From the NCBI GenBank assembly GCA_030620115.1, contig JAUXFG010000098.1, positions 1 to 14,109 on the forward strand: a stretch of 14,109 nucleotides of DNA. The letters are read 5' to 3'. A program made the position numbers and the translations under genes. Shown here piece after piece: positions 3,621 through 13,767 of this stretch (positions within the stretch are counted from its first letter, which is position 1; every line of letters begins with the position of its first letter). The stretch is from Candidatus Fermentibacterota bacterium (lineage in GTDB: Bacteria > JAFGKV01). The notes under the pieces were generated by a model. The model did no database searches. It was not told the DNA's origin and saw only the letters and a program-made list of their open reading frames with translations.

Positions 3621-3635
3621 CCAGGGGTCGGAAAC

Positions 3636-3686
3636 GTTCAACATCGAACATTCAACATCGAATGTCGAACCATGGGAACGAAGAAC
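3636..3686 (+). repeat. Heptad repeat array, copy 2, with conserved tail
   Basis: Five 7-mers in a row (GTTCAAC, ATCGAAC, ATTCAAC, ATCGAAT, GTCGAAC; 3636-3670) are followed by ATGGGAACGAAGAAC (3672-3686). The same heptads followed by the identical 15-bp tail occur at 10443-10487, so the repeated module is about 50 bp and more than simple sequence. Confidence 0.75.
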
Positions 3687-3709
3687 GCGCATCCAGTCAC
3701 GTGTCAGAG

Positions 3710-3720
3710 GTTCAGGGTTC
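3710..3720 (+). repeat. GTTCAGGG-type dispersed repeat
   Basis: GTTCAGGGTTC, the same core as at 1584-1597 and in the tandem at 11535-11611. Confidence 0.55.
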
Positions 3721-3740
3721 GGGTCAGACAGGGGAGTAGC

Positions 3741-5819: not shown

Positions 5820-5855
5820 GAATTGCGGGATTGCGGATTGAAGATTGGGAATTGA
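5820..5855 (+). repeat. Degenerate GATTG-rich low-complexity repeat
   Basis: A run of related short words (GGGATTGCGGATTG, AAGATTGGG, AATTGAG) lies directly before the GreA-fusion ribosome binding site. It looks like another intergenic simple-repeat family. No coding potential. Confidence 0.5.
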
Positions 5856-5880
5856 GTCTGCCAGCTGGAGGAAACATCGA

Positions 5881-7938
5881 ATGAGAGATGGTTGGAGGGA
5901 TGGGATGAAAAGGCTTGCTGAGCGGGGAGACTGGGAAGCACTCGAAGAGGCGTGGATTGAGGGGCTGTCCTCCGAGAGGATAGATGTAGACACTCTGGTG
6001 GAGGCAGCCCGAATTGCGGCAAGGAAAGATAGGAAGCATGCGGTGATGCTTCTTGGTCTCTTGGTAGAGGAATTCCTCGAGCAGGAGGATCCTGTGGCGG
6101 CCGAGCCGGCGCTGAGGCTTGCCTTGGACCTTGCTCCCTTGAACCGTGATCTCCGGAAGCAGGTGGGGGAACTGATCCAGCGGAAATTCAAAGACTGCCC
6201 ATTCATCAGTCGAGTGCTTGCGTTCAGCGATCCGGCAGGGAATGCCGGCACCAATGAATGGTGGGCGGCGGTTGAGGACCTGATGGATCTGAGGCCCGGT
6301 GCATATGTCAACCACCGCAGCTGGGGACATGGGATTGTGGTGGAAATGGATCCCCTGGCAGAGGAGTTGGTGATCGATTTCGTCGACAAGGCGGGCCATG
6401 TCATGTCATGGTCCATGGCGCTGAAAGCTCTGGATCCCCTGCCTGCGAACCACCTGTTCGCCTATGCAGTTGATCGACGGGATGAACTCAGTGCCATGGA
6501 GCCCATTGATCTCCTCGGTCTTGCGCTCCGAAGCCTTGAAGGAGAAGCCGAACCCAAACGGATCAGGGCTGTGCTGGAGCCCCTTCTCCCCAAGGGCAGT
6601 TGGACTTCGTGGTGGTCTCAAACAAGAGCCCAGATGGCGCGAGATCCGCGGATTCAAAGCTCTTTGGGGCGTCCACCGCGGTTGCGGTGGGTGGAGGGCA
6701 AAGACTCCGCTGATGCGGCTCGTACTCAGCTCGAGGAACTGAACAGCATGAATGCGGGGGATGCCATCAGATTGGCCCCTCGGGTGGCAAGGGATGAATC
6801 CTTGAGAGATGCAGTCAGGGAGGTCGTTCGACGGAAGCTTCCAGGCGCAGGGAAAGCGCCTTCATTGACCCTGGAGGGGCTTCTCGTATTGCATAAGCTG
6901 GGAGAGGATGCGGCCAAGGAGCAGGCCGAGGCTCTCATACGGGGAGTAGGCGATCCAGTGCCCATGGTCATGTCCATCCGCTTGTTCGAAATCAAAAAGC
7001 AGGCAATCAGTGTCTTGGAGGAGATATCGGAGAAACCCCGCGCCGCATTGGCGGCGGAGCTTTTCTTTGCCGCCAAGAATCCGCGAGATCGTGACTCCAT
7101 TATCAAGTGTCTCACAGAGGAGGAGAAGTCACAACTTGTCTGGACCGTGCTCCGACATCTCCCCGAGCAGGGCAATGCCTACTTCTGGCTGGTTCAGAAA
7201 GCCGAGGAAGGGTATCCATTCCCCTATCCGCGAGTCGAGCGTCTCTCGACATTACTTCAACTCCTCCCTCAGCTTTCGGCACTGTTGAATCCCGTGGCGG
7301 CGTTCCTGGAAGGGGGTCGTGTCGTGCGTGAGGCCGCACAAGAGCGTGGCTTGGAGGGCGCAAGCCAGCTGAAAAAGGTCCTCAGTGACGCACAGCTCCC
7401 CATCAGTCTGCGCAAGGACCTGCTTGACGAAATCGATAGACTATTCCCGGAGCTCAGGGATGAGGGGGAGATTATCTTCACCACTGAGCAGGGTTTGGCG
7501 AAGAGAGGGGAGGAGTTGCGCTATCTTGTGAAGGAGGAGCTCCCTCAGAATAAGCGGGCCATCGCCGAAGCAATGGCCCACGGGGATCTCAAGGAGAACT
7601 TCGAGTACAAGGCGGCAAAGGAGCAGCAGGAGCGTATACTCGGCAGAATAAGTGAGATCGAGAAGGAGCTCTCCAAGGCGCGGCTCCTGAATCCGGACGC
7701 AATCGACACGGAGCGGATCGGACCTGGGTGCTTGGTAACCCTGAGGGATGGAGATGGAACTGAGAGCACGTTGACGATTCTTGGCCCGTGGGAGAGCCAT
7801 CCGGCGCGTCATATATACTCATACTTGGCCCCTGGTGTGCATCCCCTATTGGGCGGACGGGAAGGTGAGAACGTGATCTTGGAGCTTGGCCCCTGGACCG
7901 GGACATATGCGGTGGTTGCCATCCGGGCGTGGCAGTAG
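5881..7938 (+). CDS. GreA/GreB transcription elongation factor with long helical N-terminal extension
   Basis: The product is 685 aa. ATG 5881 is preceded by GGAGGA (5867-5872) at 8 nt; a TTG at 5845 lies inside a repeat and is disfavoured. The last 150 residues or so form a GreA domain: a helical pair with the acidic tip G-D569-L-K-E572-N, then the C-terminal FKBP-like domain (from about 615). D569 and E572 match the tip acids that enter the RNA polymerase secondary channel and stimulate transcript cleavage, so activity is likely. The remaining 530 residues or so are mostly helical with HEAT/TPR-like character, plus a short beta-rich stretch around 139-180 (GAYVNHRSWGHG onwards) resembling a small SH3/CarD-like fold. 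Ordinary GreA is about 158 aa; this layout resembles the roughly 715-aa chlamydial GreA, known in some PVC/FCB lineages. A role in elongation rescue follows; what the extension binds is unknown. The kinase region starts within 80 bp downstream. Confidence 0.9.
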   Translation: MRDGWRDGMKRLAERGDWEALEEAWIEGLSSERIDVDTLVEAARIAARKDRKHAVMLLGLLVEEFLEQEDPVAAEPALRLALDLAPLNRDLRKQVGELIQRKFKDCPFISRVLAFSDPAGNAGTNEWWAAVEDLMDLRPGAYVNHRSWGHGIVVEMDPLAEELVIDFVDKAGHVMSWSMALKALDPLPANHLFAYAVDRRDELSAMEPIDLLGLALRSLEGEAEPKRIRAVLEPLLPKGSWTSWWSQTRAQMARDPRIQSSLGRPPRLRWVEGKDSADAARTQLEELNSMNAGDAIRLAPRVARDESLRDAVREVVRRKLPGAGKAPSLTLEGLLVLHKLGEDAAKEQAEALIRGVGDPVPMVMSIRLFEIKKQAISVLEEISEKPRAALAAELFFAAKNPRDRDSIIKCLTEEEKSQLVWTVLRHLPEQGNAYFWLVQKAEEGYPFPYPRVERLSTLLQLLPQLSALLNPVAAFLEGGRVVREAAQERGLEGASQLKKVLSDAQLPISLRKDLLDEIDRLFPELRDEGEIIFTTEQGLAKRGEELRYLVKEELPQNKRAIAEAMAHGDLKENFEYKAAKEQQERILGRISEIEKELSKARLLNPDAIDTERIGPGCLVTLRDGDGTESTLTILGPWESHPARHIYSYLAPGVHPLLGGREGENVILELGPWTGTYAVVAIRAWQ

Positions 7939-7956
7939 ATACCGGGAGGGGTCATG

Positions 7957-8028
7957 ATGGATGTCCCGAAGGGAGTCTTGGCCATCAAAGGCCTCGGACA
8001 TCATTCTCACGGGGAATGGTCCGTGTGA
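7957..8028 (+). CDS. Possible leader peptide ahead of the kinase (23 aa)
   Basis: A strong Shine-Dalgarno-like run, GGGAGGGG (7944-7951), with core GGAGG 7 nt before ATG 7957, serves a 23-codon frame and not the kinase frame. This frame ends with TGA at 8026-8028, overlapping GTG 8025, which is in frame with the kinase (GTGA overlap). ATG 8016 of the kinase lies 10 nt upstream of the same stop. The peptide (MDVPKGVLAIKGLG...HSHGEWSV) has no recognised motif. It could be a coupling leader or chance. No protein evidence exists here. Confidence 0.35.
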   Translation: MDVPKGVLAIKGLGHHSHGEWSV

Positions 8029-10382
8029 GTCCGGCATATCGGGGGCAGACACTAGTCCCGGGTGTTCTTGTTGCAGGGCGGTATCGCGTAAGGGATTTCT
8101 TGGGGCGCGGAGGGGTAGGTGATGTCTACCTTGTGGAAGATCTTGAGCTCGATGTAGAGGTAGCGCTCAAACTCCTCAGGCCGGAGGCGGCGCAAGATCC
8201 AGAGATGCTTACGCGGTTCCGTCATGAGGTCGTATTGGCCCGAAGGCTCGAGGGCTCTCACGTCGCACGGATCTTTGATATGGGCTCTGATGGGGATTCT
8301 TTTTTCATCACCATGGAGTACCTGCCAGGTCCCAGTCTCTCTGCCCAGATCGCGGAGCGTGCTCCCTTCCCACCGGGACGAACGGTAGAGCTTACCTGTC
8401 AGATCTGCGATGCCGTAGGCGAGGCGCATTCCCTGGGCATTGTCCACCGAGATCTCAAGCCACAGAACATCCTGTTCGATTCCAATGGACGCATAAAGGT
8501 AACCGATTTCGGGATGGCATATGCTCCCGATATTTCAGGGGACACTTCCTCTGGAGCGATCCTTGGAACGCCTCAGTACATGGCTCCAGAACAGGCGGAA
8601 GGGCTGGCCGTGGATCCAAGGACGGATGTGTACGCGATTGGCCTCATCCTCTACGAGATGCTCACAGGCGTTTTTCCATTTGCTACCCACAACCCAATCA
8701 CCTCATTGATCCAAAGGCTGAAGAAGCGGCCGATTTCACCATCAACATACGTGTCGGACATACCCGGGAATCTTGAGCAGCTCATTCTGCAGTGTCTTGA
8801 ACGAAATCCGAAGCGGAGGCCCAAGCACGCAGGGGAGATTCTTCGAATACTGAGAGCCGAGCATCCAGACAAGGAGCTCACCCTGCAGGAGCAAGGAAAT
8901 CCTCACAGGGTGCTTCGTCCCCTCCTCCTGCTCCTGGGCGGATTGGTCGTAGGGAGTCTCGTGTGGATGCTCTTTCCCGCGAGAACGACCTATCCGGGCC
9001 GTGGTCGGCCGTTGGTGATCTCGCACACAGGGGGGGAACTGAGCGAGGGGTTGGCCCGGCATCTCGTTGCAGCCATATCGTGGCAGGTTGATGCTCCTGT
9101 ACGTCTTTCAGTCGTGAGAGGTCATAGGGCGCGTTTTGGGTGCCTGGACGTAATCGTGGATCTACAACTCGCTGAAGAAGGGTTACGGGGAGAGGTCACT
9201 TTGGCGACCCCGGATACGCTCGCATCACGGCCCATTCGGTGGGAGAAGGGCCATGTACGGCTTCGCAAACTCACACAATGGATACTGGGCGGCTTTGGTG
9301 TGCCATCGCGTGAGAATGCGTGGGAAGGTCGATGGGACACGAATACGGCAGCATTTGTCACATACGCCCGTGGGTTGGCTGCTCACAATGAAACGCTTCT
9401 CGTGCATGCGGCTCAGGTCGACCCGGATTGGCCCTGGCCTTCCCTGGCTCTGGGGGAACTCCTGGTTGAGCACAGTCCCGCGGATGCGGCACATGCATTG
9501 CAGGAGGCCCAGCGATTGTCCATTCCCGCTGAGGCTACTCTATTACTTCGAGATCGGATAGAATTATCCAGTGGGGAAGCCGATGCCGTGCTGTCGCGCT
9601 TGCTCACTCGGTCCATTCTCGAGGGGTTCCGTTTTGATGAAACGATTTTTGCGGCGAGAGTGGCCGCTCTCACCGGCGGAGGAGCAGCTCGAGGGCTTGC
9701 TCTTTTTTCACTTTTCCAGTGGAGCCAAGATGGGGAAGTAGCCCTGATGCTCGCGGAAATGGATCGTGGAATGGGAAATGAGCAGGGCGCCATTGATTGG
9801 GCTCACACTGCCCGGAGGGATCTTGGTGCGTCCGGTGACATCCTGACGATCGAGGCTCTTGCCCGTCTGCAAGACGGCGAACCAGAGCAAGCCCAGAGTC
9901 TGGCTCGAGAGCTTCTAAGAATGGAGCATTCGGCCCGGGCTTATGCGCTGATTGCGGAGGCGGCGCTCAGGCAACGCGAGCTGCTCGAGGCGTTCGAGGC
10001 CGCTGAGGAGGGTGTCTCCCGGTTTCCAGAGAATCTTATCCTTCGCCATGAGCTATGGCTTGCTGCGACGGAATTGGGCGCCCACGGCGAGCATTCTCCC
10101 GTACCGCCGGATTCGATCTCCGGGCTTGCCACTCCTCACCAGCGTTTGGCCGCGCTTCTCTACTCGGCTCCTTCATGGGCTATGGATTGTGAGAAGCTTT
10201 GGTGGAAGCTGGCAGTCAGGCATCCTCATCTGCCGGAGACATGGCTTGTGGGTGCATGGATCGCAAGGTTCTTGGAAAGGCCTGAGGTTGTTTGCTTGAG
10301 ATTGGAGAGAGCCCAAAGAGCGGGTCTCTCTGCGCGGGCGCTTTGTCAGGATATCAGGTTCGTTGGCTGGCAGACGGGCTAG
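8016..10382 (+). CDS. Transmembrane serine/threonine protein kinase with extracytoplasmic TPR-like domain
   Basis: The product is 788 aa from ATG 8016, or 785 aa from GTG 8025, which has the better-spaced GGGGA (8011-8015). A GTG at 7929 would overlap the GreA fusion and adds an unlikely N-terminus. The cytoplasmic Hanks-type kinase domain (about 18-270) is intact: glycine loop GRGGVGDV, ATP-binding lysine in VALK (K52), catalytic loop HRDLKPQN (D146), DFG (D164) and APE. One membrane helix (about 299-321) is followed by an extracytoplasmic part: a mixed alpha/beta domain, then helical repeats resembling TPRs to the C-terminus. No PASTA domains. This is the layout of bacterial sensor kinases that phosphorylate Ser/Thr in response to envelope signals. 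Substrates are not evident. It follows the GreA fusion closely and may be co-transcribed with it. Confidence 0.9.
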   Translation: MVRVSPAYRGQTLVPGVLVAGRYRVRDFLGRGGVGDVYLVEDLELDVEVALKLLRPEAAQDPEMLTRFRHEVVLARRLEGSHVARIFDMGSDGDSFFITMEYLPGPSLSAQIAERAPFPPGRTVELTCQICDAVGEAHSLGIVHRDLKPQNILFDSNGRIKVTDFGMAYAPDISGDTSSGAILGTPQYMAPEQAEGLAVDPRTDVYAIGLILYEMLTGVFPFATHNPITSLIQRLKKRPISPSTYVSDIPGNLEQLILQCLERNPKRRPKHAGEILRILRAEHPDKELTLQEQGNPHRVLRPLLLLLGGLVVGSLVWMLFPARTTYPGRGRPLVISHTGGELSEGLARHLVAAISWQVDAPVRLSVVRGHRARFGCLDVIVDLQLAEEGLRGEVTLATPDTLASRPIRWEKGHVRLRKLTQWILGGFGVPSRENAWEGRWDTNTAAFVTYARGLAAHNETLLVHAAQVDPDWPWPSLALGELLVEHSPADAAHALQEAQRLSIPAEATLLLRDRIELSSGEADAVLSRLLTRSILEGFRFDETIFAARVAALTGGGAARGLALFSLFQWSQDGEVALMLAEMDRGMGNEQGAIDWAHTARRDLGASGDILTIEALARLQDGEPEQAQSLARELLRMEHSARAYALIAEAALRQRELLEAFEAAEEGVSRFPENLILRHELWLAATELGAHGEHSPVPPDSISGLATPHQRLAALLYSAPSWAMDCEKLWWKLAVRHPHLPETWLVGAWIARFLERPEVVCLRLERAQRAGLSARALCQDIRFVGWQTG

Positions 10383-10385
10383 AGA

Positions 10386-10439
10386 GGCCACCCGCCGGCC
10401 CACCGACTACGCTCAGGACAGGCGGGGCAGGCCGGTGGG
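10386..10439. repeat. GC-rich inverted repeat just after the kinase gene
   Basis: CCCGCCGGCC (10391-10400) pairs with GGCCGGTGGG (10430-10439) over 10 bp with one G:T, loop 29 nt. It starts 8 bp after the kinase stop but has no T-tract. Its left edge, GGCCACCCGCCGGCC (10386-10400), recurs with one change at 13841-13855, so this is probably a dispersed element that may incidentally slow or stop transcription. Confidence 0.5.
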
Positions 10440-10442
10440 AAC

Positions 10443-10487
10443 GTTCAACATCGCAACATTCAACATCGAACGATGGGAACGAAGAAC
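10443..10487 (+). repeat. Heptad repeat array, copy 3, with conserved tail
   Basis: GTTCAAC, then an 8-mer (one extra base), ATTCAAC and ATCGAAC (10443-10471), followed by ATGGGAACGAAGAAC (10473-10487), identical to the tail of the copy at 3636-3686. Confidence 0.75.
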
Positions 10488-10527
10488 ATGCAACCAACTT
10501 CTGATCTCTTTCACTTAGGCGTTGGAC

Positions 10528-10558
10528 GTTCGATGTTCGATGTTCGATGTTGAATGTT
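10528..10558 (-). repeat. Heptad repeat array, copy 4, inverted and overlapping the radical SAM start
   Basis: GTTCGAT three times, then GTTGAAT, in 7-bp steps: the reverse complement of the ATCGAAC/ATTCAAC family. GTTCGATGTTGAATGTT (10542-10558) is a perfect 17-bp inverted repeat of 10455-10471, with 70 bp between. The apparent start codon at 10547 lies inside this arm. Confidence 0.75.
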
Positions 10559-11524
10559 TATATATCTTGGGATGCCTCTCGACACTGGATAGAGAGATTC
10601 GGGGTTAGAGTGCGAGCTAGAGGCCGCTACCTCGAATTGGTCCCCGGGGGGCAGCTGCGGGAGAGGGCGAGACGGCTCGAGTTGCTGCTCAAACGCTGCC
10701 AATTATGTCCTCGCAGATGCAATGTCGACAGGACTAAGGATCAGGTGGGCGCCTGCGGGATTGGCCGGAATGCTCGAGTGGCCAGCTATGGGCCGCATTT
10801 TGGAGAGGAATCGGTCCTGGTTGGGCAGGGCGGGAGTGGAACGGTATTCCTGGCCGGCTGCAACCTTTCCTGCATCTTCTGCCAGAATTACTCGATCAGT
10901 CATTTTTGTCAGGGAGAAGAGATGGGGACGGAGGATCTGGCCCGGATCATGGTGCGGCTTCAAGAGATGGGATGTGAGAACATCAATTGGGTGACACCAA
11001 CTCATCAAGTGCCGCAGCTTGTCAAGGCGCTCTGTCTGGCAGCGGAAGATGGGCTCACGCTCCCGGTAGTCTATAACTGCGGAGGTTACGAGGATGCATC
11101 TGTTCTTGACCTCCTGGATGGGGTGGTGGATGTGTACCTTCCCGATACGAAGTTCGTCTCGCCTCAGGTGTCCATGGCACTGGCTTCGGCGCCCGACTAC
11201 TTCCCTGTTGCGTGCAGAGCTTTGCGGAAGATGCATCGGCAAGTGGGCTTACTCCGGACCGACTCCAGAGGTGTGGCGATCAAAGGTGTTCTTGTACGGC
11301 ATCTCGTGCTTCCCGGCGATCTGGCGGGGAGCCGCATGTGGGCGAGGGCGCTCTCGAAGTTGTTAGGGAAGCGCGGGGCGGTGAACGTCATGGGACAATA
11401 CCGACCAGCATTTCGTGCTGCGTCGTTCCAACCGCTCCATCGCCCGGTTTTGCCGGATGAGGTACATGCAGCCCGCCGAGAGTTCGAAGCAGTCGGGCTC
11501 CGACTAGTCGATAATCCATGTTAG
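10547..11524 (+). CDS. PflX-type radical SAM protein (COG1313)
   Basis: The product is 325 aa. The radical SAM cluster motif is C105-NLS-C109-IF-C112 (CxxxCxxC, followed by QN). Upstream is a second cysteine set, C51-QL-C54-PRR-C58 with GA-C70-G, typical of the COG1313 'pyruvate formate-lyase activating enzyme-like' (PflX) family. The middle (WVTPTHQVPQ; VVYNCGGYE; DVYLPDTKF) follows this family. The true substrate of the family is not established, and no glycyl-radical enzyme is nearby. The start is uncertain: ATG 10547 lies in an intergenic repeat and lacks a ribosome binding site; GTG 10610 with GGGG upstream would remove 21 residues without touching conserved positions. I keep the longer frame with this caveat. 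The C-terminal end is complete and followed by a repeat-filled gap. Confidence 0.85.
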   Translation: MLNVYISWDASRHWIERFGVRVRARGRYLELVPGGQLRERARRLELLLKRCQLCPRRCNVDRTKDQVGACGIGRNARVASYGPHFGEESVLVGQGGSGTVFLAGCNLSCIFCQNYSISHFCQGEEMGTEDLARIMVRLQEMGCENINWVTPTHQVPQLVKALCLAAEDGLTLPVVYNCGGYEDASVLDLLDGVVDVYLPDTKFVSPQVSMALASAPDYFPVACRALRKMHRQVGLLRTDSRGVAIKGVLVRHLVLPGDLAGSRMWARALSKLLGKRGAVNVMGQYRPAFRAASFQPLHRPVLPDEVHAARREFEAVGLRLVDNPC

Positions 11525-11534
11525 TTGTTCAAAG

Positions 11535-11611
11535 GTTCAGGGTTTGGGGGTTCAGCGTTCAGGGTTTAGGGGTTCAGTGTTCAGGGTTTAGAAGATTAGC
11601 GTTCAGGGTTT
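11535..11611 (+). repeat. 22-bp tandem repeat, four starts
   Basis: GTTCAGGGTTT begins at 11535, 11557, 11579 and 11601, exactly 22 bp apart. The first two units are nearly identical over their full length; the later two diverge in their second half. The period is not a multiple of 3, so the open frame running through it (from 11518) is not coding. The array ends about 35 bp before the ribosome binding site of the next gene. Confidence 0.85.
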
Positions 11612-11661
11612 GGAGGAACTCTGAGCCTGTGAACGCTGACTATCCTTGGAAGGAGAGACCT

Positions 11662-13767
11662 ATGCGTATTGGTAAAACAACAGCGCTTCTTCTGACATTC
11701 TGTGGTGTTTTTTTGTTTTGCTGCGGTGGAAGCGATCATCCCAGGATAGAGATCAAGCTTTCCCAGTGGCCTCAACTTGTTGAGGAGCTTCGGGAGACGG
11801 ATGGCTTTCGAATGGGCGAGCCCGGACATGAAGTTTACCTTGGGGCAGGCTGGGATGAGGTGGAACAGGATCCGGACGGACGATTCTTCAGATGGGCTCT
11901 GGGGGATACGGTGGAGGTGATGGTGCCAATCGTGCGACGCCATGCCTTGAAGTGCCGTATCAGATGGGCGCGCCCACCCCTAGGTGAAGGGCAGGTTCAG
12001 GGCATGGTATTTTTGTTCAATGACACTGATATAGGCCGCACGAGTATTGCCAGCCATCGTTTCAACGATTTCGAGCTATCCATTCCTCAAGATGTGGTAA
12101 GGACCGGCCTCAATATTCTGCGTATCGTCCCCTCCAGGGCGGCCCGAATCCCCGGTGATCCGAGACCGCTCAGATTCTGCGTGCGAGAGATCGGCTGGGA
12201 AGCAGGCGTGCGACGGGAGTTCCAGGAGCTGCCACCAGAGACCAAGTCGCGACTCAAGAATGCGGTGGAGCGGGCTTCGATGTTGGGATTGTCCCACGTG
12301 AGTCAAGAGAATGCCTTTGTTGTTCACCTCCACGTTCCCAAAGGAAGTATCATCAGAGGCATGGTACATCATCTTGGTGTGGATGGCGGTGAGACTGTCG
12401 CCGTCTCCATCATTGGGGCCGAAATGCATGGCGAGGAGCGCGTATTATGGACTCGTGAGGTGGATCCCGGACCGACGCCGACCGTGGTGCGTGTGCCAAT
12501 GGGGCATGCGGTTGATTGGTTTGTGCTTCGTGCAGATGAAGGTGATATCGCCGGGGTCGGCATCGGGGACATGGTGATTGAGGCGCCGGTCGTGCCGGAC
12601 GCAGGCAAGATGATCGCCTTGGTTACCATCGATGGATTGCGGGCGGATATGATACAGCGTAGGGGTACAATCACGCCACGCATGGATGAGATTGCACGGT
12701 CCGGAGTCGTTTTCACGAGGGCGTATGCACCCTCAACTCACCGCATGCCAGTATACTGCAGCCTGATGTCGGGGGTCTATCCCTTTGTGCATGGCGTTTA
12801 TGATGACGGGCACAGCCTGTCCTCAATGACCTCGACGTTGGCCACGGAACTCGGAGCGCAGGGATATACCTGTATTGCAAGTGTCGCGGATCCAGTTCTG
12901 CATGCAGCACGACAGAGCCTCGGGCGTGGATATTCCAGGTTTGATGGCCCCAGTGCCCGATTGTTGTCGGCTGCGGAGCAGACAGATCGCATTATCCGTT
13001 TGCTTTTTGCCAACTGGCATCGCCTTGGCAAGAGCCTGCTGTGGATGCAGTTCGCAGACTTGACGCCTCCATTCGATCCTCCTGATGAGTATGTGGAGAT
13101 ATGTGCCGAATTTGGATGGGCAGAGGAAGAGGACCTCAGAGAGGCGCAAGTTCGATACATGGCGACCGTGTCCTTCATCGATAGTCAGATCGGGAAAATC
13201 CGCGAGGCCATGCAGGTACTTGGTCTCACGGAGCACGGTGTTCTTGTGATGACTGGAGGATTTGGCATGTCATTGGGTGAGCATGGAGCCATGGAGGGCC
13301 ACGCGATGCTTTTCCAAGAGGTGATGCACGTTCCACTGGTGATTGCAGCGCCCGGCCGCGCAGCGCCTGCCAGCATGGCGGCAGCTCCTGTGAGCTTGAT
13401 TGATCTTTTCCCCACGCTCCTTGATCTGGCTGGTGTCTCCATCGCTCAGCGGGATCACGGAAGAAGTCTCACGCCCCTTCTTGCGGGGGAAGCGATGAGT
13501 CCGCAGCCGGTGTTTTCGGAATCGGAAGAAGGAATGTCGGTGGCCTCAGTGGAATGGCCCTACAAGCTGATCCAGGCAACAGATTCCGCGCATCCACCAG
13601 TCTATCTCCAAGAGGAGAGGATGCTTTTCGATCTAGAGCGCGACCCGGGGGAGCAGGAGGATCTTGCCTCGAGCCAGCAGAGTCAGGCTGAGGGGATGTG
13701 GTCGCGGTGGAGCGCGTTCTTGGATGGTTCCGAAGCCAGGTTTCGCTCCGTGTCGCTGGATAGGTAG
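11662..13767 (+). CDS. Sulfatase/alkaline phosphatase-fold lipoprotein, probably inactive
   Basis: The product is 701 aa. ATG 11662 is preceded by GGAAGGAGAG (11648-11657). A hydrophobic signal ends in L-F-C-C-G-G (about 18-23), resembling a degenerate lipobox, so it is probably envelope-anchored. Residues about 25-310 are beta-rich and unrecognised (jelly-roll-like). From about 318 the sulfatase fold follows: VTIDGLRAD (D324), TPRMDEIARSGVVF, SLMSGVYPFVHGV, LATELGAQGY, SLGEHG and VPLVI are in the canonical order. However, the nucleophile position (Cys/Ser/Thr of C/T-x-P-S) is R361 in R-M-P-V-Y; the metal pair of SDHG is replaced (T531-G-G-F534-G); and DPHxPY reads D466-L-T468-P-P-F. Only D324 of the usual metal ligands is clear. 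A pseudoenzyme with a structural or binding role is likelier than a sulfatase. A PflX-type radical SAM gene lies upstream. Confidence 0.85.
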   Translation: MRIGKTTALLLTFCGVFLFCCGGSDHPRIEIKLSQWPQLVEELRETDGFRMGEPGHEVYLGAGWDEVEQDPDGRFFRWALGDTVEVMVPIVRRHALKCRIRWARPPLGEGQVQGMVFLFNDTDIGRTSIASHRFNDFELSIPQDVVRTGLNILRIVPSRAARIPGDPRPLRFCVREIGWEAGVRREFQELPPETKSRLKNAVERASMLGLSHVSQENAFVVHLHVPKGSIIRGMVHHLGVDGGETVAVSIIGAEMHGEERVLWTREVDPGPTPTVVRVPMGHAVDWFVLRADEGDIAGVGIGDMVIEAPVVPDAGKMIALVTIDGLRADMIQRRGTITPRMDEIARSGVVFTRAYAPSTHRMPVYCSLMSGVYPFVHGVYDDGHSLSSMTSTLATELGAQGYTCIASVADPVLHAARQSLGRGYSRFDGPSARLLSAAEQTDRIIRLLFANWHRLGKSLLWMQFADLTPPFDPPDEYVEICAEFGWAEEEDLREAQVRYMATVSFIDSQIGKIREAMQVLGLTEHGVLVMTGGFGMSLGEHGAMEGHAMLFQEVMHVPLVIAAPGRAAPASMAAAPVSLIDLFPTLLDLAGVSIAQRDHGRSLTPLLAGEAMSPQPVFSESEEGMSVASVEWPYKLIQATDSAHPPVYLQEERMLFDLERDPGEQEDLASSQQSQAEGMWSRWSAFLDGSEARFRSVSLDR

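Follow-up and report, generated by a model that had tools for sequence, protein, structure and literature searches.

A predicted lipoprotein of Fermentibacterota with a sulfatase-fold domain that has lost its catalytic nucleophile and distal metal pair

The window (the whole analysed stretch of 14,109 nucleotides) contains a gene, P0001, that is annotated automatically as a sulfatase. The gene, its parts and its conserved upstream neighbour are located as follows (residues are numbered from the ATG at 11662).

10547..11524, + strand: radical SAM gene, a conserved neighbour in all three genomes, with no NCBIfam match above the cut-off
11650..11657, + strand: Shine-Dalgarno sequence AAGGAGAG, from direct sequence reading
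11662..13767, + strand: P0001, gene for a predicted pseudo-sulfatase lipoprotein of 701 aa (clean frame, Shine-Dalgarno sequence at 11650-11657, orthologues)
11662..11724, + strand: predicted signal peptide and lipobox (LFC-C21), read from the sequence, similar in the G001 and G002 orthologues
11734..12210, + strand: N-terminal domain, residues 25-183, with the GW..VEQDPDGRFFRWA motif; CBM-like beta jelly roll in a low-confidence model
12289..12585, + strand: second beta domain, residues about 210-308 (strands in the AlphaFold model, aligned with paralogues)
12598..13746, + strand: sulfatase-fold domain, residues 313-695 (PF00884, SGSH_C, VIA Z 36)
12631..12633, + strand: D324, retained metal-ligand Asp (D in 59/59 relatives)
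12742..12744, + strand: R361 at the nucleophile position (T, C or S in 59/59 relatives; V in the orthologue)
13063..13065, + strand: T468 replacing the His of DPHxPY (H in 59/59; A in the orthologue)
13258..13263, + strand: G533-F534 replacing the Asp-His metal pair (D in 58/59, H in 59/59; G-R in the orthologue)
13267..13269, + strand: M536, shared-derived with the orthologue (E in 57/59 relatives)

The mechanical open reading frame of P0001 opens at 11518; the ATG at 11662 is taken as the start because it is preceded by the ribosome-binding site and opens a signal peptide, and the sequence and the alignments show that the frame and numbering of the initial annotation (R361, T468 and G533/F534 counted from this ATG) were right. 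At the place of the lipobox, the orthologues carry ALA-C (G001) and ALG-C (G002); in P0001, read by eye, the residue before the lipobox cysteine (-1) is itself a cysteine, which is unusual. P0001 is a predicted bacterial lipoprotein that would be anchored by Cys21 in an envelope membrane. Directly upstream of the gene, short direct repeats of the GTTCAGGGTTTAGGG type are arranged in tandem with a 22-base period; repeats of this type are found between genes at 11535-11616, 1569-1606 and 3704-3723 of the window, and dispersed intergenic repeats of the TTCAACATCGAACATT type at 1896-1919, 3630-3695 and 10437-10559, some of them as an inverted pair (10455-10471 / 10542-10558).

The gene was found in 3/3 Fermentibacterota genomes examined, namely its own (G000), that of a second genus (G001) and G002. 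The G001 protein, P0002, is a full-length orthologue, 35% identical to P0001 end to end (34% overall in the codon-position comparison), and its gene adjoins the same radical SAM, GreA-fusion and ispG genes. The G002 copy is a fragment: its N-terminal part lies where a contig ends, and the radical SAM and GreA-fusion genes are once more its neighbours. The orthologue evidence comprises one full-length orthologue and three genomes. A scan of the genome contigs with the P0001 sequence alone gave no match, the same scan with alignment A1 returned the record of G001 itself and remote sulfatases, and the scan of viral contigs with A1 found no relative. The radical SAM neighbour was considered as an anaerobic sulfatase-maturing enzyme and rejected: no such NCBIfam model matched, and the weak NrdG/AmmeMemo/PflA-type matches are under the cut-off. 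Further upstream, the window encodes a GreA domain fused to a long N-terminal extension of about 540 aa (5845-7938), a fusion present in all three genomes; a Ser/Thr kinase with a TPR-type C-terminus (7929-10382), in whose place a UbiA-like membrane protein of 772-806 aa is read from the sequence in G001 and G002; and a DUF362 protein with a TAT-like signal and a C-terminal FlgD Ig-like domain (214-1566).

A Pfam search with P0001 identifies the Sulfatase family, PF00884, with 69.5 bits over residues 320-592 (cut-off 25), and SGSH_C with 46.2 bits. An AlphaFold2 model obtained with alignment A4 reaches a mean pLDDT of 69.8 and exceeds 80 in much of the sulfatase domain; VIA-align matches residues 313-695 to 4upl (Z 36.3, 2.9 Å over 359 residues) and 6hr5 (Z 36.1), an agreement of fold that is partly built in because the alignment behind the model contained sulfatases. 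Residues 313-695 thus have the sulfatase fold of the alkaline phosphatase superfamily. The superposition is by fold score only, so that the residue correspondence rests on the sequence alignments; in a phmmer comparison with PDB chains, the catalytic Cys of both 4upk and 6ust falls opposite R361, and the Asp-His of 4upi opposite G533/F534.

The catalytic positions were compared across 59 aligned relatives, 52 of which come from G000, G001 and G002, together with P0001 and P0002. The nucleophile column is Thr in 57 relatives, Cys in one and Ser in one. The sole relative without Asp at column 533 is L021, an open reading frame that ends early at a frame break and has a gap at column 536 (E or D in the other 58 of the 59). 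This frame and L024 belong to one sulfatase-fold gene whose coding sequence is divided between two frames (G000:C144:9989-10944), either a pseudogene or an assembly error. The Asp of column 324, the first metal ligand of catalytic sulfatase-fold enzymes, is kept in both P0001 and P0002; Q463 of P0001 stands where 54/59 relatives have His, and H547 is kept in P0001 only, being aligned with Leu in P0002. Of the 30 columns that are conserved in at least 85% of the relatives, six differ in both orthologues (361, 468, 471, 533, 534 and 536), all of them within catalytic motifs, while both proteins keep the structural Gly, Pro, Tyr and Asp columns 335, 401, 423, 499, 507, 535, 558, 581, 584, 585, 600, 661 and 664. 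As judged from these alignments, chance is excluded as the cause of the changes at catalytic columns. A register shift that would make T359 the nucleophile was ruled out, because P363 and S367 fix the register of the alignment and the model helix starts at 361. Neither P0001 nor P0002 has the Cys or Ser nucleophile of a formylglycine sulfatase (CxPSR motif), and P0001 lacks the threonine-type (LtaS/EptA-like) combination of a Thr nucleophile and an Asp-His metal pair. P0001 very probably does not act as a sulfatase, phosphatase or phosphodiesterase of known type.

These results bear out the proposal of the initial annotation that a sulfatase-fold protein with intact fold landmarks had lost its active site at R361, T468 and G533/F534: the 59 relatives and the PDB alignments agree on all of these assignments and place no alternative Ser, Thr, Cys, Asp or His at the nucleophile or metal positions. 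The sole close orthologue is also non-catalytic, with partly different residues (V, A, G, R). The structural comparison likewise upholds the fold.

As to the ancestry of the domain, the G000 genome (4.1 Mb, 98% complete) contains 24 PF00884 matches, with one gene split in two. The PF00884 paralogues of the three genomes (L001-L022, L078-L107) nearly all have Thr at the nucleophile position and, on this sequence pattern, are probably not formylglycine sulfatases. Genes of the FGE family are present in all three genomes; their relevance to P0001 was dismissed, given that nearly all paralogues are of the Thr type and P0001 has neither Cys nor Ser at the nucleophile. The closest sequence relatives, the Thr-type L090 and L095, share 28-30% identity with P0001 in an alignment that covers the sulfatase domain and extends into part of the second beta domain (from residue 219 in the case of L095), and they keep the DT(F/L)RAD, TxPSHxS, DPHxPY and DHGE motifs, whereas D324 is the only one of their catalytic residues kept by P0001. 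In the tree, P0001 and P0002 are monophyletic (support 100/99) and neighbour the active paralogues L090, L095, L008, L087 and L088 (fork 92/76). Since the active relatives carry Thr and not Cys or Ser, the lost activity was probably of the threonine type and not that of a formylglycine sulfatase; the ancestor of P0001 was probably a hydrolase or a transferase. The residues G325, D410, W452, G533 and M536 are common to P0001 and P0002 and absent from all 59 relatives, which places the death of the active site before the split of the genera.

The N-terminal part of the protein stands out in its conservation. Residues 30-190 are the most conserved stretch of P0001 (47% identity with P0002, compared to 28-37% in the sulfatase domain and 33% in the C-terminal part), and the N-terminal domain is present in a single copy in each of the three genomes. 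The model shows a 20-residue N-terminal signal helix followed by mostly beta strands in residues 25-307, and the N-terminal domain, modelled with a mean pLDDT of 51, resembles CBM27 (VIA Z 9.2), CBM35 (8.7), CBM15 (8.4) and the carbohydrate-binding domain of BcsB (8.4). A PDB profile search with this domain yields nothing significant, and its identification as a carbohydrate-binding jelly roll is tentative, coming from the model. Domains related to it are found, among 386 genomes, in GT-C-type membrane proteins (L122, L124), where they lie towards the C-terminus, in a repeat protein (L121) and in lipoproteins. For example, the N-terminal region of P0004, a lipoprotein from another phylum, aligns with that of P0001 (hhalign E 9e-7), and its short C-terminal part has a weak hhalign match to sulfatases (E 0.0038, probability 9%); full-length relatives of P0004 are found in three more genomes, always adjoining a MalK/UgpC-type ATPase. 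The lipoproteins L123, L127, L128 and L129 (about 540 aa, another phylum), encoded beside a MalK/UgpC-type ATPase, have a P0001-like N-terminal region and possibly a shrunken sulfatase-like C-terminus, with no Pfam match in the one that was scanned. Finally, L138, an 865-aa lipoprotein of G350 (another phylum), contains a sulfatase domain with intact catalytic motifs. The relatives P0004 and L138 indicate that the architecture is wider than the P0001 gene and make an active ancestor plausible.

Between P0001 and P0002, the overall identity is 0.49/0.58/0.31 at codon positions 1/2/3, and the sulfatase domain taken by itself gives 0.46-0.50/0.59-0.60/0.29-0.30; third positions are saturated and first and second positions are held, hence the gene is under purifying selection. 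Together with synteny in three genomes, this is not simple decay, in agreement with the initial reading of a selected non-catalytic protein, for which binding, scaffold or sensor roles remain candidates. With catalytic residues lost and the fold under purifying selection, P0001 is a pseudoenzyme. The branch length separating the pair is 2.24 changes per site, compared to 0.49-1.00 in eight active G000-G001 orthologue pairs, and the rate of evolution of the sulfatase domain is about 2-4 times that of its active paralogues; constraint is therefore relaxed, not absent.

The explanation that we favour, and hold to be somewhat probable, is that P0001 is a conserved pseudoenzyme that serves as a non-catalytic ligand-binding or scaffold lipoprotein of the envelope. 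Its sulfatase-fold domain would descend from a catalytic threonine-type enzyme of the sulfatase/alkaline phosphatase superfamily. The loss of the distal metal-pair Asp and of the DHGE Glu preceded the divergence of the genera, the one step that can be taken as certain, and the nucleophile, its His partner and the substrate His would have been lost by the genus split or soon after, with the structural core kept throughout. Presumably held in the envelope membrane by Cys21, the protein might use its CBM-like head, the dead pocket or both to bind an envelope glycan or a ligand that is ester-bearing or lipid-linked, without turnover, and act as a receptor, sensor or scaffold, in the manner of YejM/PbgA, which reads lipid A with a sulfatase-fold domain. 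Binding is favoured by the conservation of the N-terminal domain, its CBM-like model and the catalytic lipoprotein L138 with a related N-terminal domain; the explanation as a whole is weakened by the single full-length orthologue, the low pLDDT of the N-terminal model, the retention of D324 (in both proteins) and H547 (in P0001), the reported phosphatase activity of YejM, and the fast evolution of the sulfatase domain, which also fits slow domain loss.

The main rival, fairly unlikely in our estimate, takes up this last point: the CBM-like N-terminal domain alone would be functional, and the sulfatase domain, under relaxed constraint and in slow decay, would be no more than a passive spacer. 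The regional difference in identity, the long distance between P0001 and P0002, the fact that P0002 no longer reaches a match to PF00884, and the A7 lipoproteins of another phylum, in which related N-terminal domains are followed by only a short C-terminal part that matches sulfatases weakly, are all compatible with this scenario. However, codon positions 1 and 2 are well conserved inside the sulfatase domain (0.46-0.60) while position 3 is saturated, gaps are few, the structural columns and the C-terminal part are kept, and the dead site has acquired new residues common to the pair. An allosteric partner or decoy of an active threonine-type paralogue in the same genome (a pseudoenzyme-enzyme pair) is improbable. 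There are about two dozen PF00884 loci in G000 to choose from, the closest active relatives, L090 and L095, are in the sister genomes, and in G001 the active sulfatase-fold gene L086 adjoins P0002; but no conserved pairing is seen, the contig of P0001 in G000 carries no paralogue (it lacks the sequence that would flank the far side of the gene), and the conserved neighbours are the radical SAM and GreA-fusion genes. Still less probable is a catalytic P0001 with an active site re-invented around D324, H547 or another residue. YejM, with its unusual site and reported activity (PMC7576196), is a precedent of sorts, and D324 persists in both orthologues; nevertheless, the nucleophile, both distal metal ligands and the substrate His are gone in both, with mostly different replacements (R/V, F/R, T/A), and H547 of P0001 corresponds to Leu in P0002. 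An artefact of assembly or of sequencing, or a pseudogene of recent origin, conceivable in a G000 draft of 296 contigs, has hardly any probability, being already contradicted by P0002, which shows the same dead positions in an independently assembled genome of a second genus, with a full frame and synteny. The favoured reading of P0001 as a non-catalytic binding or scaffold protein implies that the automatic sulfatase annotation is wrong for this gene, and the lineage offers a natural test of the constraints on a pseudoenzyme pocket.

Lipoproteins outside Fermentibacterota share part of this architecture. L138 has a related N-terminal domain (28% identity over residues 43-174, E 0.002) and a sulfatase domain, and differs from P0001 in its intact catalytic motifs and in an insertion within the sulfatase domain. 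P0004 and the other A7 lipoproteins have a related N-terminal region and, like P0001, no catalytic motif, but their C-terminal part is only about 200 aa long and weakly related to sulfatases. It is conceivable, though unlikely, that lipoproteins in which a CBM-like head is joined to a sulfatase-fold pseudoenzyme form a distinct class of envelope glycan receptors or sensors that arose from catalytic lipoproteins at least twice, in Fermentibacterota and, more shrunken and beside a sugar-type ABC ATPase, in the A7 family of another phylum.

Catalytically dead sulfatase-fold proteins are sparsely documented, and in a search of a limited collection of papers YejM/PbgA was the sole bacterial case found. 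In this protein (YejM/PbgA/LapC, NF038282, of Enterobacteria), a sulfatase/LtaS-like domain serves lipid A sensing and regulation, and the protein has been termed a pseudo-hydrolase (PMC13125744); Mg-dependent phosphatase activity has been reported for YejM, which keeps the nucleophile Thr (Thr302) (PMC7576196). The presence of LpxC in all three genomes makes an LPS-bearing outer membrane likely, and a role of P0001 in lipid A sensing or LpxC control no more than possible. Membership of P0001 in the YejM/PbgA/LapC family was ruled out by the score against NF038282 (24.9 bits, E 5.6e-6, versus the curated cut-off of 825) and the lack of a transmembrane domain. P0001 and the periplasmic domain of PbgA share a sulfatase/LtaS-like fold (6xlp: VIA Z 32.4, 2.8 Å over 319 residues), but YejM has five N-terminal TM helices, which are absent from the P0001 model, and retains Thr302, whereas in P0001, a predicted lipoprotein whose N-terminus is CBM-like, the nucleophile is lost. 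If the favoured reading is true, P0001 stands for a second lineage, independent of YejM/PbgA, in which the sulfatase fold has been reused for binding; its architecture differs, and the loss is cleaner in that the nucleophile itself has disappeared.
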